A stretch of DNA of 43,555 bases from Gemmatimonadota bacterium (GTDB lineage Bacteria; Gemmatimonadota; Gemmatimonadetes; Palauibacterales; KS3-K002), in contig CP070722.1 of NCBI GenBank assembly GCA_020350785.1, positions 2,253,151 to 2,296,705 on the forward strand, written 5' to 3'. How positions within the stretch are numbered: the stretch's first letter is position 1; the number at the start of each line of letters is the position of its first letter. Below are positions 2,147 to 8,047 of the stretch, piece after piece. Below the pieces are notes generated by a model. That model searched no databases, was not told the origin of the DNA, and was given only the letters and a program-made list of their open reading frames with translations. The position numbers were made by a program, and so were the translations under genes.

Positions 2147-2812
2147 CTATCGCCACAATACTTGCTCGCCGGGGCCCTGAACCTCATTCAGCTCCCGCAG
2201 CATCGCGTCCCGCTCCTCGACCGCCGCGAACAGATACGAGTTCAGCACCGGATCCGCTGGTTCCACTGACAGCGCCGTCCGCGATGCCTCCACCAGCATC
2301 TGCAGCCCCACCAAGCGCTGCTGCGCCAGCGAGGGTACCGGCGCGCCCTCCTGCCGCGCCAGGCGCTCCAGATTCTGTAACGCCTCATCGTAGTCGGCGC
2401 CGCGACGCTGCACCTCGGCCATCGCCTCCGTTAACGTCATCGCCGACGGGCGGCTCGCCGCCACTGCGCCAACGCCCGCCTCGCTGCCCGGCCCGTCCGA
2501 CCACATCGCTCGGCCCAGGCCCAGCCCGATCACGAACACGGCCGCCGCGGCCACAGCCTGCAACGCCACCAGACGCGGCCCGCGTAGACCCGCGCGCCAG
2601 CCCCGTCGGGACCCCGGCAGCCCGGCCTCGATCCGCATCCAGAGATCCTCCGGAGCACCCAGGTCCGGGAGCTCCCTCAGCTCGGCGCGTAGCTGCCGCA
2701 ACGCCTCCAGCTCATCCTGGCAAACAGAACAACTCGACAGGTGCTCCCCCGCCCCTGCTACGGACTCACCGTCCAGAAGCTCAGAGAGTGTCTCTTCCGT
2801 TAGATGCACCAT
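2147..2812 (-). CDS. membrane anti-sigma factor with HxxxCxxC zinc finger
   Basis: The 221-residue protein begins with the ZAS/zf-HC2 anti-sigma domain: His24, Cys28 and Cys31 form HxxxCxxC in EHLSSCSVCQDEL. A membrane segment follows at about residues 85-107 (VALQAVAAAAVFVIGLGLG), then a roughly 110-residue C-terminal domain predicted outside the membrane. The layout (cytoplasmic zinc finger, one helix, outer sensor) is that of type II anti-ECF factors. The start lies 14 nt after the stop of the ECF sigma gene, and this pairing is the main support for the function. The C-terminal part is helical and shows no catalytic motif. Confidence 0.88.
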   Translation of the reverse strand: MVHLTEETLSELLDGESVAGAGEHLSSCSVCQDELEALRQLRAELRELPDLGAPEDLWMRIEAGLPGSRRGWRAGLRGPRLVALQAVAAAAVFVIGLGLGRAMWSDGPGSEAGVGAVAASRPSAMTLTEAMAEVQRRGADYDEALQNLERLARQEGAPVPSLAQQRLVGLQMLVEASRTALSVEPADPVLNSYLFAAVEERDAMLRELNEVQGPGEQVLWR

Positions 2813-2826
2813 GTTCGACTATTACC

Positions 2827-3384
2827 TCAGCTTCTCACCCCGGCTCTCGACTGCGTCACCAACGCCCGCAGCCGTGCTCGCGCCTTCGACAACTGCGACT
2901 TCGAAGTGCCCACCGCTATACCCAGGCGCGCACCGATCTCCTCGTGCGTGTACCCTTCCACATCGTGCAACCACAACACCGACCTGTAGCCGTCGGGGAG
3001 CAAGTCCAGCGCCCGCTGCACCGTCACCCGCTCCGCCGCTCCCGCCGCCGGCCAACGATCGGGATTGCCCAACGTCGTCGCACCATCAAAACCCCTCTCC
3101 AGATCGCGCCGCCGCGCCGCCTGCCTCAGCCTCGTCAGCGCCGTGTTCACCGCCACTCGGTGCACCCACGTCCCAAACGCCGACTCGCCTCGGAAATCAC
3201 GAATCCGCTGGAAGGCGTTGGTCCAGGCATCCTGCGCCAGGTCCGCCGCCAGATCATCGTCACCGGCCAACCGCCGCACTACCGTGTACACCCGCGACGC
3301 GTGCCGCTCGTACAGCTGCCGCATCGCCTCGAGTTGCCCAGCTCGCGCCCGACGGACCAGCGTGGCTTCAGCCAAATCGACCAA
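2827..3384 (-). CDS. ECF RNA polymerase sigma factor (operon with ceramide genes)
   Basis: The product has region 2 (ATLVRRARAGQLEAMRQLY through DLAQDAWTNAFQRIRDFRG and TWVHRVAVNTALTRLRQ, about residues 7-90) and region 4 (ALDLLPDGYRSVLWLHDVEG with the helix-turn-helix HEEIGARLGIAVGTSKSQLS, about 125-175). There is no region 3, as expected for an ECF sigma. I prefer the TTG at 3384 because GGAGGGAAGG lies just upstream; a GTG at 3429 would overlap the PAP2 gene by 17 nt without a ribosome site. It sits between the PAP2 gene and its anti-sigma partner, suggesting that this regulator is co-transcribed with the lipid genes. Its region 4 is very like that of the second ECF factor at 15288-15875. 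Confidence 0.92.
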   Translation of the reverse strand: MVDLAEATLVRRARAGQLEAMRQLYERHASRVYTVVRRLAGDDDLAADLAQDAWTNAFQRIRDFRGESAFGTWVHRVAVNTALTRLRQAARRRDLERGFDGATTLGNPDRWPAAGAAERVTVQRALDLLPDGYRSVLWLHDVEGYTHEEIGARLGIAVGTSKSQLSKARARLRALVTQSRAGVRS

Positions 3385-3412
3385 TACGCCTTCCCTCCGT
3401 GCTCCCAGTAAC

Positions 3413-4333
3413 TTAGACGGGCGATCCACGGCCGGAGTTGCCCGCCCACTTCCTCGTCACTGCCTCCAGCCGCGGCCGCATCCGCCGAGCCAGCGACACG
3501 AGGATCACCGCCGCCAGTACCCCGCTCAGCGCATCCACGCCGTAGTGGAACCGCCCGTAGACCGTCCCGACAGTAAGCGCGATTACCGGTAGCGCCATGA
3601 GACCGCACACCAGCCGGTCATGACGCCAGCTCACCAGCAATATCGTCACCGCCACCGCTACGTGCGAACTGGGAAAAGCTGCACCTTTGCTCCCTCCATC
3701 CTCCAGCACCGCGTGCACCAGCTGGAAGAAGAAACCCTCCGCCAGTGGCCCGTCGATCACCGGGAACTGGTAGTGAGGGCCCGCGACTGGAAAAAAGATG
3801 AAGACCAGATAGCACCCGAAAAAGACGACCAGCTCGACGTATGCTAGCTCACGAAAACCCGCGATCCGCCCTCTCAGATACAGCGCCACCGCCGCCAGCG
3901 GCAGCTGCACCCAGTAGAACGCGTAGCTCAGATGGAACAGCTCGCTCAGCCAGAGGTTGGGCACTCGCTCGCTGAACGTCATCGCCAGCTGCTCGCCGAA
4001 GAGCGACTCTTCCAACCTCAAGATCAGCGGGTCGTGGTATCCCGTTGTGAACAGTAGGGCAAGATACCTGAGTTCCCAGTACAGGTAGACGATGAACAGG
4101 AACGGGTAGATATCGCGCAGGAACCCGCCGGACGTCCGGTCCTGCAGCGGTCGACCCGACCACCAGAGCCCGACCGCCAGCAACGCCGCGTGGGCCAGGG
4201 AGAGCCCCAACCAGACGGTCGGGCCCACCCGGTATCCGAAGATGCCGACGAGCAGGCCCGAAAGAAGAACGTAGCCCAGAAAGACCAGGTCCGCAGGCTG
4301 CGCCTTCGCCAACCGACGTTTGAGCCGGCTCAC
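3413..4333 (-). CDS. PAP2-superfamily membrane phosphatase/phosphotransferase (candidate ceramide head-group enzyme)
   Basis: The 306-residue product has about six hydrophobic segments and the PAP2 core motifs: FPSSHVAVAV (motif 2, catalytic His) and YGRFHYGVDALSG (motif 3, His and Asp). This form, with YxxFHY/VD and no classical KxxxxxxRP first motif, resembles the PAP2 group that includes inositol-phosphorylceramide synthase (Aur1-like) proteins, which transfer or remove phospho-head groups at the membrane. The GTG at 4333 overlaps the upstream gene's stop as GTGA and is preceded by AGGGG, so it is preferred to the GTG at 4357. Its place directly after the ceramide genes suggests a sphingolipid substrate; a general lipid phosphatase is the alternative. 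Confidence 0.82.
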   Translation of the reverse strand: MSRLKRRLAKAQPADLVFLGYVLLSGLLVGIFGYRVGPTVWLGLSLAHAALLAVGLWWSGRPLQDRTSGGFLRDIYPFLFIVYLYWELRYLALLFTTGYHDPLILRLEESLFGEQLAMTFSERVPNLWLSELFHLSYAFYWVQLPLAAVALYLRGRIAGFRELAYVELVVFFGCYLVFIFFPVAGPHYQFPVIDGPLAEGFFFQLVHAVLEDGGSKGAAFPSSHVAVAVTILLVSWRHDRLVCGLMALPVIALTVGTVYGRFHYGVDALSGVLAAVILVSLARRMRPRLEAVTRKWAGNSGRGSPV

Positions 4334-5313
4334 AGCCACCCCTGCGCTCGGTACCACTCCGCCGTCGCGCGAAGCCCATCTTCGCTGTCGTAGTGCGGCG
4401 ACCAGCCCAGTTCTCGCTGTGTGCGCTCCGTGCCGCAGGTCCAGGCCCGCTGGATCAGATCTCGGGCTCGCCGGCCGTCCAACTCACCGGCCGCACCACC
4501 ACGGCCCAGCAATTCCATCAGCGCACCTGCGCCTCTCAACACGATCGCCGGCAGGCGCACCGTCAGCGTTCGCCGTCCAGTGGCTCGTCCGATCGCCCTT
4601 GCTAGCTGGCTCCAGGTTAGTACCTGGGGATGCGCCACAAAATAGGTGTTGCCTAGCGCCACGGCTCGCTCCGCCGCCAGGCGAAGAGCCTGCGCCGCAT
4701 CTCGAGCATGCACCACCTGAACCAGCCGGCGCCGCACGCCGGGCGCGATCACCACGCCATGAGCCGCCATCTTGAAATAGGGTAGGGTATCCTCGTCGCG
4801 TGGGCCGTAGACGGCCCCGGGTCGTACTATCACTACCCCGATGCGGTCACCCGCGCCCAACGCCTCTCTCTCCGCCGCCAGCTTGCTGCGCCCGTAGTCG
4901 CTGGTCGGCGCCGGCGGATCTTCCACGGCGCGCGGTCGACCCGGCCTACTGGGGCCTGCCGCCGCCTGGCTACTACACAAGACGAAGCGCGGCTTCCCAT
5001 CCGACTCGCAGCACGCTTTCACCAGCGCCAGCGTCCCCCGCTGGTTGGCCGCCCGCAGCGCCTCCGGCGAGCCTCGCGTCAGTCCGGCGCAATGGATCAC
5101 CTTGTCGACACCGTCCACCGCTGCCGCCAGATCACCGCTCAGAAGATCCCCCACGACCAGCTCCACCGGCTTGCCCTCCAACCAGCGCAGCTTGCTCGTC
5201 GCCCGCACCAGGCAACGAACCCGGTATCCCGATTCCAGAAGCTCGTCAACGGCATGGCTGCCGACGAAGCCGGTGGCTCCCGTCACCAGAGCGGTTCTCG
5301 TTTCAGTGGACAT
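4330..5313 (-). CDS. NAD(P)-dependent extended SDR, candidate ceramide (3-ketoceramide) reductase CerR
   Basis: The 327-residue protein has the nucleotide-binding motif TGATGFVGSH (about residues 11-20), the acidic/Arg pocket CLVRATSKLRWL, and the catalytic YGRSK (Tyr and Lys, about residue 140). These are features of epimerase/dehydratase-type extended SDRs. In characterised bacterial ceramide pathways (Caulobacter cerR) the reductase that removes the 3-keto group is annotated exactly this way and is encoded close to spt and bcerS. Here it follows the GNAT-like gene and precedes PAP2 with overlap, which makes that role the best guess. Another sugar or steroid-like dehydrogenase function cannot be excluded from motifs alone. 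Confidence 0.8.
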   Translation of the reverse strand: MSTETRTALVTGATGFVGSHAVDELLESGYRVRCLVRATSKLRWLEGKPVELVVGDLLSGDLAAAVDGVDKVIHCAGLTRGSPEALRAANQRGTLALVKACCESDGKPRFVLCSSQAAAGPSRPGRPRAVEDPPAPTSDYGRSKLAAEREALGAGDRIGVVIVRPGAVYGPRDEDTLPYFKMAAHGVVIAPGVRRRLVQVVHARDAAQALRLAAERAVALGNTYFVAHPQVLTWSQLARAIGRATGRRTLTVRLPAIVLRGAGALMELLGRGGAAGELDGRRARDLIQRAWTCGTERTQRELGWSPHYDSEDGLRATAEWYRAQGWL

Positions 5314-5359
5314 CCGTTGTGTTGTTGTTGAGTGCTCTGTCTAGCGGCGGCCGGCACCG

Positions 5360-6481
5360 CTAGCTGAGCGCGCGCTCGTAGAGCCGGTAGGTCTTGTAAC
5401 GGCGGAAGCCCATCTTCTCAACCCCCTGAATCATCGAGTAGTTGTCCTCCAGAATCCATGAGCTCTCCGCCACTCGATGTCCTTTGCCCGTTCCGCGCCG
5501 AAAGATCTCCGAATAAAGAAGCGGGGCCATTAGCGACTTGCGGTATCCTTTCAGAATCCCAAGCGTCAACACCCTGATTCCAGAGATCCTCCGCATGTGC
5601 CAGAGAAGCCGGATCAGCCCGAACGGAAACAATCGACCGTTGGCTTTGCGAATCGCCTGGTTCACATCGGGCAACGCCAAGGCAAATCCCGCCGGCTTCC
5701 CCTCAGCCTCCCCTATCAGTGCTAACTCGGGATCGATCACCGGCTTCAGTTGCTTGGCCATGTACGTCACTTCCTCGTCCGTCATCGGGACGAATCCCCA
5801 ATTGCGCTCCCAGGCCGCATTGTACAGGTCCCGAACGAGACTCACCTCCTCCTCGAACCTGTCCATGCGAATCGATCTGACGCGCAAGTCCGTATTCGAA
5901 CGCTCGATAATGCGCTCGAGCGAGGCTAGGCGCTGCCGATCGAAATCCTCCTCCCGAACCTCGTAAGCCAAGAGGTCCTTGGCCTTCTCCAGACCCCAAG
6001 CTTCGAGCAGATCCACGTAGTAGGGAGGGTTGTAGGCCATCATCACGTAGGGGGCCGACTGAAAATTGTCTACGAGCAGCCCGCATTCATCGTTGGTCGA
6101 GAGACTCGTGGGGCCTCGCAGTCGGTCCAGCCCCCGATCCACCACCCACTCCCCCGCCCGATCCAGCAGCGCACCCGCCACCGCCGCATCATCCTCCGCC
6201 TCGAACAACCCGAAGAAACCTACCTTGTCCTCGTGGACGCGATTGTGCAGCCCGTTCTCGATCGCCACAATCCGACCCACCGGCCGACCGTTCTTGTATG
6301 CCAGGAATGGCTGGACGGCACCATGGGCGAAGAAGGGATTGCCGGGGTCCAAGCGCTTCTTCTCCTCGATCAGCAGCGGCGGAACCCAGGCCGGATACTT
6401 CCCAGGATAGATCCGCCAGGGAAAATGGAGAAAGGACTTGCGCTCTCCCCGCGTCTCAACGGGCCGAACTTGGATGCTCAC
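5360..6481 (-). CDS. GNAT-fold acyltransferase-like protein, candidate bacterial ceramide synthase BcerS
   Basis: The 373-residue protein begins QVRPVETRGERKSFLHFPW and contains PAWVPPLLIEEKKRLDPG, NPFFAHGAVQPFLAYKNGRPVGRIVA and a C-terminal half with ALIGEAEGKPAGFALALPD, RVLTLGILKGYRKS and a tail ending KMGFRRYKTYRLYER. This is the tandem GNAT-like architecture found in proteins of this length that are often called hypothetical or N-acetyltransferase. In Caulobacter such a protein is the bacterial ceramide synthase that N-acylates 3-ketosphinganine. It lies between the spt-like and reductase-like genes (33 nt after spt), which is the main argument for that role. The GTG start is not backed by a clear ribosome site. 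Confidence 0.75.
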   Translation of the reverse strand: MSIQVRPVETRGERKSFLHFPWRIYPGKYPAWVPPLLIEEKKRLDPGNPFFAHGAVQPFLAYKNGRPVGRIVAIENGLHNRVHEDKVGFFGLFEAEDDAAVAGALLDRAGEWVVDRGLDRLRGPTSLSTNDECGLLVDNFQSAPYVMMAYNPPYYVDLLEAWGLEKAKDLLAYEVREEDFDRQRLASLERIIERSNTDLRVRSIRMDRFEEEVSLVRDLYNAAWERNWGFVPMTDEEVTYMAKQLKPVIDPELALIGEAEGKPAGFALALPDVNQAIRKANGRLFPFGLIRLLWHMRRISGIRVLTLGILKGYRKSLMAPLLYSEIFRRGTGKGHRVAESSWILEDNYSMIQGVEKMGFRRYKTYRLYERALS

Positions 6482-6514
6482 TAATCTGCAGGTCGAATGG
6501 TCGGATGCGTCGCC

Positions 6515-7714
6515 CTAGATCACCGCCAGCTTCTTGCCAACCTGCTCGAAAGTCTCCAAAACAAAGTCGAGCTGGTCGTCCGTGTGCTCTGCTATATAAC
6601 TGGTGCGCAGGCGACAGCTGTTCTCCGGTACCGCCGGCGGCATCACCGGGTTGGTAAAGACCCCGGCGTCGAATACCTCCTTCCAGAAAATGAACGTCTT
6701 CTCCATCGGCCCGACCATTATCGGTATGATCGGTGTCTCAGTCGGGCCAATCTCGAATCCCAAGCTCCTGAAACCGTCCATCATGCGATGGGTAATCTGC
6801 CAAAGCCGCTCGCGCCGCTCCGGCTCCTTCTGTATGACTTCCAGAGCCGCCAGGACCGTCGCCACCGCCGCCGGAGGCATGCTGGCACTGAAAATCAGGC
6901 TGCGCGCATGATGCCTCAGGTAATGAATCACCGACTCCGGGCCCGCCACAAAACCACCAATAGATGCAAACGACTTGCTGAACGTGCCAATCGTCAACGG
7001 CACCCGATCCGTCAGTCCAAAGTGCTCGGCCGTGCCAGCTCCCGTCGGTCCCAGATAACCGATCGCGTGCGCGTCATCGACTACCAGAGCGGCACCGAAC
7101 TCCTCACACAACTCCACCAACCTCGGCACATCCGCTATATCACCCTCCATGCTGAACACACCGTCAACCACCACCATGTGACCCACATCGTTGCTTTCGG
7201 CCACCACGTTCGCCTCAAGCTGCCGCCTCAAGTTCTCCAGATCGCCGTGCTTGAAACGCGCAACCTCGCCGTAAGCCAGCCGACTGGCATCGACGATGCT
7301 CGCATGGTCCAGCTTGTCCAGATACACTCGGTCGCTGCGGCCTACCAGCGTGCCGATCACCCCCAGATTGGTCTGATAACCCGTGCTGAATACCAAGGCC
7401 GCCTCCGTCCCTATGAACTCGGCCAGCCGCGACTCCAGTAACTCATGCAAATCCATATTCCCGTTCAAGAATCGGCTGCCCGTGCAACCGCTACCGTACT
7501 TCTTGAGCGCCGCCTGCGCAGCCTCGATCACGCAAGGATGATGGGTGAGGCCCAGGTAGTTGTTCGAGCCGACCATTATCTTCCGCTTGCCGCCCACAAA
7601 TGACTCCGTGGCCGTTGTCCCCTCGATCGGCACGAAATAGGGGTAATAGCCCGCGGCCATGACCTCGCGCGCTCTTGTGAATGTGTAGCACTTCTCGAAA
7701 ATGGGTATATGCAT
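6515..7714 (-). CDS. spt: serine palmitoyltransferase-like alpha-oxoamine synthase
   Basis: The 399-residue protein is a complete alpha-oxoamine synthase: GSNNYLGLTHHP near the N-terminus, GSGCTGSRFLNGNMDLHE, DKLDHASIVDA, VVDDAHAIGYLGPTGAG, and TFSKSFASIGGF with the PLP Lys at residue 247. The family comprises serine palmitoyltransferase, glycine C-acetyltransferase (Kbl), ALA synthase and BioF. The N-terminal extension FEKCYTFTRAREVMAAGYYPYF and the neighbouring ceramide-type genes favour SPT (L-Ser plus acyl-thioester to 3-ketosphinganine). A GGGAGG sits just before the ATG. It is the first gene of the operon. Kbl is less likely because no threonine dehydrogenase is adjacent. Confidence 0.87.
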   Translation of the reverse strand: MHIPIFEKCYTFTRAREVMAAGYYPYFVPIEGTTATESFVGGKRKIMVGSNNYLGLTHHPCVIEAAQAALKKYGSGCTGSRFLNGNMDLHELLESRLAEFIGTEAALVFSTGYQTNLGVIGTLVGRSDRVYLDKLDHASIVDASRLAYGEVARFKHGDLENLRRQLEANVVAESNDVGHMVVVDGVFSMEGDIADVPRLVELCEEFGAALVVDDAHAIGYLGPTGAGTAEHFGLTDRVPLTIGTFSKSFASIGGFVAGPESVIHYLRHHARSLIFSASMPPAAVATVLAALEVIQKEPERRERLWQITHRMMDGFRSLGFEIGPTETPIIPIMVGPMEKTFIFWKEVFDAGVFTNPVMPPAVPENSCRLRTSYIAEHTDDQLDFVLETFEQVGKKLAVI

Positions 7715-8047
7715 TCTCCCTCCCGGGAGTTGAGACCCGCGTAATCTATGCCTAAATTGGCCAAACCATGTTCGGCTGAGCTAACCCGGCATATTACCCG
7801 CTGGCAGCCCTCTCGGCAAGGACGCAGCCACCCGAGTCAGGCGGCCCCTGCGGGCCCAGAAGCTCACGAGATCCATCACGAGTTCAACGTCACCTATGCC
7901 CGTGGCGTCGCGCAGCTCCAGGCCCGACTGATTCCCGGCCCCGAGAGTCAGATCCATCTCGCTTGCGCCACGACCATCGGGCAAGCCGGCGGCACCGCTC
8001 ACTTTGCCTATGCGTACCGCGTCGCCACGCTCGATGGAGGAAGCCCG
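7715..8047. promoter_or_regulatory. divergent intergenic region of the spt operon and the flavoprotein gene
   Basis: This stretch of about 330 bases holds no gene I can support. The minus-strand promoter for spt should lie at about 7740-7790, where a TAGATT -10-like hexamer (7743-7748) has no good -35, and a CCGAAC motif (7770-7775) resembles an ECF -35 GAAC. The plus-strand frame is open through 7748-8047 but its translation does not resemble the family N-terminus. Confidence 0.35.
8036..8040 (+). promoter_or_regulatory. ribosome binding site fixing the flavoprotein start
   Basis: GGAGG lies 7 nt before the ATG at 8048, which is where the conserved FAD-binding N-terminus begins. This decides against the ATG at 7748, which would add 100 unrelated residues. 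Confidence 0.8.

Follow-up and report, generated by a model that had tools for sequence, protein, structure and literature searches.

A probable ceramide-biosynthesis operon with an AUR1-like membrane protein gene in a Gemmatimonadota genome

The closest described systems for bacterial ceramide synthesis are those of Caulobacter crescentus and Escherichia coli B, in which the gene set comprises spt, acpR, aasR, cerR (epi) and cerS (yghO) (PMC9386255, PMC11324152). In E. coli, yghO (ECD_02850) is the counterpart of Caulobacter CC_1154, and ECD_02852 that of CC_1164 (PMC9386255). The cerS gene of bacteria is stated always to lie in another operon (PMC11324152). Attachment of a head group has been described in Bacteroides thetaiotaomicron (BT_1522–1526), where the AUR1 homologue BT_1522 puts phosphoinositol on ceramide (PMC8791184, PMC9246714). 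The present analysis concerns a 43,555 nt stretch (the window) of a Gemmatimonadota bacterium genome (assembly GCA_020350785.1, contig CP070722.1, positions 2,253,151–2,296,705), which is a single contig of 4.09 Mb. Four consecutive genes on the minus strand of the window specify a serine palmitoyltransferase (SPT), a tandem GNAT protein, a short-chain dehydrogenase/reductase (SDR) of the extended type and a PAP2 membrane protein, and with a probability of about three in four they represent an operon for the synthesis of dihydroceramide followed by attachment of a phospho-head group. The core consists of the three enzymes already described for ceramide synthesis in bacteria; the pathway is known, and what is new is how its genes are arranged in the operon: spt, bcerS and cerR lie in one same-strand unit without adjoining acpR or aasR, whereas in Rhodobacteria the latter two genes lie beside them (PMC9386255).

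The spt gene (6515–7714, minus strand) encodes an alpha-oxoamine synthase of 399 aa that belongs to the Pfam family Aminotran_1_2 and, from sequence comparisons, is a member of the serine palmitoyltransferase family. SerpalmtaseCFB was the highest scoring of 20 NCBIfam families (512.7 bits), followed by SerpalmtaseBetaP (402.8 bits), and the closest solved structure in the PDB was the SPT of Sphingobacterium multivorum (3a2b, 414 bits), with Kbl entries at 244–258 bits. In a maximum-likelihood tree the protein fell within a 34-row group (support 99/96) that includes the SPTs of S. multivorum, E. coli B and Sphingomonas, while a separate group (100/98) comprised Kbl of E. coli together with a second alpha-oxoamine synthase of the source genome, and BioF lay outside on a long branch. 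The stretch around the pyridoxal phosphate-binding lysine reads GTFSKS, which is SPT-type (TLGKA in Kbl, TFGKG in BioF), and the HAS and DDAH motifs are conserved. A first-pass annotation of this DNA, made from the letters alone, had proposed an SPT-type enzyme, and this is upheld by the active-site stretch and by the tree, where the protein joins the SPTs, away from the glycine C-acetyltransferases.

The next gene, of the bcerS type (5360–6481, minus strand), specifies a protein of 373 aa. Pfam and NCBIfam searches gave no match for this protein itself, and phmmer against the PDB gave no useful match; 22 of the 24 aligned members of its family matched Acetyltransf_1 (Pfam), and its AlphaFold model (pLDDT 90.9) was recognized by Foldseek as a tandem GNAT (E = 1e-14). 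A tblastn search of plasmid records recovered relatives over the full length, among them YghO of E. coli and a GNAT of Streptomyces whose gene adjoins an SPT-like gene. Identity to YghO was 36% (E = 1e-82), compared with 35% for the Sphingomonas protein (E = 4e-71) and 42% for that of Streptomyces (E = 2e-94), the matches being full-length for the first two; throughout, the E. coli and Sphingomonas counterparts were used as stand-ins for the Caulobacter proteins. In a tree with long branches the protein grouped with its E. coli, Sphingomonas and Streptomyces counterparts, separately from Shinella-type paralogues; support was modest (87/92). Judged by sequence, it is a member of the YghO/CC_1154 bCerS family, so that the earlier BcerS-like label can be kept (the group it falls in does contain the bCerS homologues from E. 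coli and Sphingomonas), and it is probably a ceramide synthase that N-acylates a sphingoid base. Other settings of this GNAT family were also seen. Two Myxococcaceae/Archangiaceae loci (L132 and L144) carry a second bcerS-type GNAT after spt-gnat-sdr, and the IncP conjugative plasmid pDCB2 of Diaphorobacter sp. JS3051 (L164) carries one together with LptF/LptG permeases, CDP-alcohol phosphatidyltransferases and a fatty acyl-AMP ligase, and looks to contain a mobile phosphosphingolipid cluster.

The third gene (4330–5313, minus strand) encodes an extended SDR of 327 aa in the Pfam Epimerase family, with the NAD(P)-binding motif TGATGFVG. Among the SDRs of the genome it matches the CerR counterpart from E. 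coli best (90.8 bits versus 70.6 for the next), and it is 28–40% identical to the counterparts in E. coli, Sphingomonas and Streptomyces. It is probably a cerR-type ceramide/3-ketosphinganine reductase, as judged from homology and gene context. The CerR of Caulobacter is reported to be periplasmic (PMC11087976); a scan of the window SDR for transmembrane-like stretches found none.

The fourth gene (3413–4357, minus strand) specifies a membrane protein of 314 aa in the Pfam family PAP2_3 (E = 1.9e-17). Searching the PDB with phmmer gave no useful match for it. A structure model made from 20 relatives (pLDDT 88.1) gave two significant Foldseek matches, the Aur1–Kei1 complex (4.6e-4) and an inositol phosphorylceramide (IPC) synthase (8.6e-4), with a human sphingomyelin synthase-related protein third (8e-3) and phosphatases ranking behind (LpxE at 0.04). 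The motifs PSSH and HYxxD, which form the His/His/Asp core of the PAP2 superfamily, are present in 20/20 members, and KX6RP, the motif of PAP2 phosphatases, in 0/20. In its predicted fold the protein is therefore AUR1-like, nearest to Aur1 and another IPC synthase ahead of phosphatases, and it is probably a phosphosphingolipid (head-group) synthase, which strengthens an earlier guess that this gene supplies the head-group enzyme. Elsewhere in the source genome, a MIPS gene (C1:1398830) adjoins a gene for a CDP-alcohol phosphatidyltransferase, and the two could plausibly supply phosphatidylinositol. Paralogous PAP2 genes were noted in two relatives (L157, 3327–5225, and L158, 2724–6147), where they lie near another SDR and without spt or GNAT.

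In the pathway that we propose, SPT would form 3-ketosphinganine by condensing an acyl thioester (probably acyl-CoA) with serine, and the GNAT protein would N-acylate this product. The AUR1-type PAP2 protein would then transfer a phospho-alcohol from a glycerophospholipid to the 1-hydroxyl of ceramide, probably at the outer face of the inner membrane, with phosphatidylinositol as a good candidate for the donor. We infer the actual reactions, the chain lengths of the substrates and the head group from protein families and predicted structure.

Comparison with other genomes, mostly incomplete assemblies, showed the order spt-gnat-sdr-pap2 to be kept in relatives at the levels of family, order and class, and since it recurs in nearly all close relatives examined, the arrangement is not a matter of chance. 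SPT and the operon-type PAP2 were concordantly present or absent in 58 of 60 related genomes (Fisher p = 5e-12, uncorrected for shared descent), and one of the two exceptions (G007) is at a contig end. Further afield, SPT is near a GNAT gene in 58 of 80 named loci from many phyla, and a PAP2 gene of the same profile family stands beside ceramide genes in Gemmatimonadota, Eisenbacteria, Acidobacteriota (in the order sdr-pap2-gnat-spt), one Planctomycetota record and deltaproteobacterial records. In Myxococcus a PAP2 gene of this type lies about 4 kb upstream of the ceramide genes, on the other strand and divergent. With several independent gene orders, hitch-hiking is unlikely. The named loci of highest similarity to the window, and to relatives from its class, were from Gemmatimonadetes; one of these class relatives matched a locus of Longimicrobium (74% over 3.4 kb). 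By these matches Gemmatimonadota is the likely phylum, in agreement with the guess of the first-pass annotation. Taken together, family membership of SPT and GNAT, the AUR1-like fold of the PAP2 protein, synteny, and joint presence and absence support the earlier description of a compact ceramide-biosynthesis gene set with a head-group gene. The chances seem evenly balanced for a broader proposal drawn from these gene neighbourhoods, in which phosphosphingolipids would be formed by an AUR1-type synthase whose gene accompanies spt, bcerS and cerR, both in Gemmatimonadota and, where the genes are ordered differently, in Acidobacteriota, Myxococcota and further bacteria; head-group chemistry of the AUR1 type would then be widespread among bacteria and linked to the core of ceramide synthesis. 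In genome G001 the operon is split within the SDR gene (L154/L155), with spt-gnat and SDR residues 4–80 at 2.20 Mb, and SDR residues 30–322 followed by pap2, the sigma and anti-sigma genes and a PDZ gene at 4.19 Mb, either by rearrangement or by misassembly.

Several results weigh against parts of the proposed pathway. The SPT protein scores below the NCBIfam equivalog cut-offs for serine palmitoyltransferases (for SerpalmtaseCFB, 512.7 versus 640 bits) and so stands outside the curated subfamilies, such a cut-off being a curation threshold rather than a biochemical definition. It also shares the general alpha-oxoamine synthase fold, and the bioF model TIGR00858 reaches 393 bits on it, which might suggest a glycine C-acetyltransferase or BioF with unrelated neighbours; but the tree, the top PDB match and the active-site stretch are all SPT-type, another alpha-oxoamine synthase of the genome groups with Kbl, and the conserved linkage of GNAT, SPT and PAP2 is contrary to unrelated neighbours. 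A Kbl or BioF identity was ruled out by the tree and the active-site residues, and this explanation is extremely improbable. Somewhat less remote, yet still improbable, is a product other than serine-derived ceramide, such as an alanine-derived 1-deoxyceramide or a cysteate-derived sulfonolipid: SPT can use alanine (PMC11334938), and cysteate fatty acyltransferase is a homologue of the SPT protein (239.5 bits in the PDB search). However, the match to S. multivorum SPT is far higher (414 bits), and an AUR1-type head-group enzyme would require the 1-hydroxyl that serine supplies. For the SDR, deep forks of the tree do not separate CerRs from other SDRs, so the assignment leans on synteny and the genome's best match; these support the CerR-like label of the first-pass annotation. 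At the PAP2 protein the link to Aur1 is a structural one (TM-score of about 0.58), and a profile search of the PDB with its alignment returned a single weak match, the phosphatidylglycerophosphate phosphatase YodM (E = 0.02). Since PAP2_3 is a broad family, the ceramide core could be right and the fourth protein a lipid phosphatase, acting for example on ceramide-1-phosphate or phosphatidylglycerophosphate, and no head-group transferase. This is fairly unlikely; against it stand the best Foldseek matches (Aur1, another IPC synthase and the sphingomyelin synthase-related protein), the missing KX6RP motif in all 20 members, and the linkage of PAP2 to ceramide genes in several phyla. As for the head group itself, MIPS was considered as evidence for inositol and lost weight, because 58 of 60 relatives carry it, with or without the ceramide operon, and it is no specific pointer to IPC.

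The regulation of the ceramide operon raises a further alternative. Behind the four enzyme genes, and also on the minus strand, lie genes for an extracytoplasmic function (ECF) sigma factor (2827–3429), an anti-sigma factor (2147–2812) and, as the seventh gene of the syntenic block, a PDZ-domain protein (1056–2099; Pfam PDZ_6, syntenic in relatives). From spt to the PDZ gene, in the order of transcription, the spacings are 33, 46, -28, -17, 14 and 47 nt, as in one transcription unit. The first-pass annotation had the six reading frames from spt to the anti-sigma gene, their order, coordinates and strand right; of the several overlaps it mentioned, two are genuine, SDR/PAP2 (-28 nt) and PAP2/sigma (-17 nt), and Pfam and NCBIfam agree with its alpha-oxoamine synthase, SDR/epimerase, PAP2 and ECF sigma assignments. 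The sigma protein has the Pfam domains Sigma70_r2 and r4_2 and is 50–88% identical to syntenic copies in the same family and order. The anti-sigma protein carries the sequence HLSSCSVC (HxxxCxxC) and one transmembrane-like segment (residues 78–105), with an NCBIfam antisigma match (E = 1.7e-8) that is under the cut-off. The pair adjoins and overlaps the enzyme genes, its position is conserved within the family and the order, and its anti-sigma factor is of the zinc-binding (ZAS) type, from which we infer that the pair may control the ceramide operon. In the same family and the related family f2 the pair, often with the PDZ gene, follows the four enzymes, but in a number of further families of the class the enzymes are retained and no such pair was found. 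A conserved element before spt (TTGCCG-N17-TAATAT, 7791–7819, minus strand) looks like a housekeeping, sigma-70-like promoter, and not like the AAC/GTC type of ECF sigma factors. Among 21 members, 15 have the pattern TTGC-N17/18-TA...T in the region before spt (shuffle mean 0.14), and the exact form TTGCCG-N17/18-TAGCTT is only slightly enriched genome-wide (5 matches versus 2 in the control). An ECF-type promoter before spt was also sought, and no match was seen in the six members scanned. With the TTGCCG-N17/18-TAGCTT-like element weighing against it as well, the idea that envelope stress activates the ceramide operon through the ECF pair is doubtful.

No report of sphingolipids in Gemmatimonadota was found in the open literature searched, and the operon predicts them in this common soil phylum. 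A metagenome study counted Spt-like genes in 38 phyla (PMC11334938), so the core pathway of Gemmatimonadota may already be counted there. The presence of spt and bcerS in one unit is an exception to the statement in PMC11324152 on separate operons, on which a salvage-pathway argument was built. The compact four-gene set would suit a laboratory host, where the disputed order of acylation and reduction could be tested together with the head-group step. The findings also suggest that, in several phyla, bacterial ceramide genes come with an enzyme of the AUR1 type.

Compared with Caulobacter and E. coli B, the locus has a homologous SPT, tandem GNAT and SDR (the proteins compared being those of E. 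coli and Sphingomonas), while its SPT is nearer to the S. multivorum type. In Bacteroides the AUR1-type gene is found with inositol genes, whereas here it is found with ceramide genes, and MIPS and the CDP-alcohol phosphatidyltransferase are elsewhere in the genome; BT_1522 was compared by its description. Yeast Aur1 (9ivc) and the second IPC synthase (9vj4) share the overall fold of the PAP2 model by Foldseek, at 19% identity. The order spt-gnat-sdr is the same in Streptomyces sp. NBC_01001, Rubrobacter radiotolerans and Myxococcus, and what follows it differs. On the Streptomyces plasmid (L023, 6769–11295) an overlapping gene for a condensation-domain protein stands where PAP2 stands here, and on plasmid 1 of R. 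radiotolerans (L163, 4704–10296) the aminotransferase, GNAT and SDR genes are followed by an LTA synthase family protein instead of PAP2, possibly an alternative head-group enzyme.

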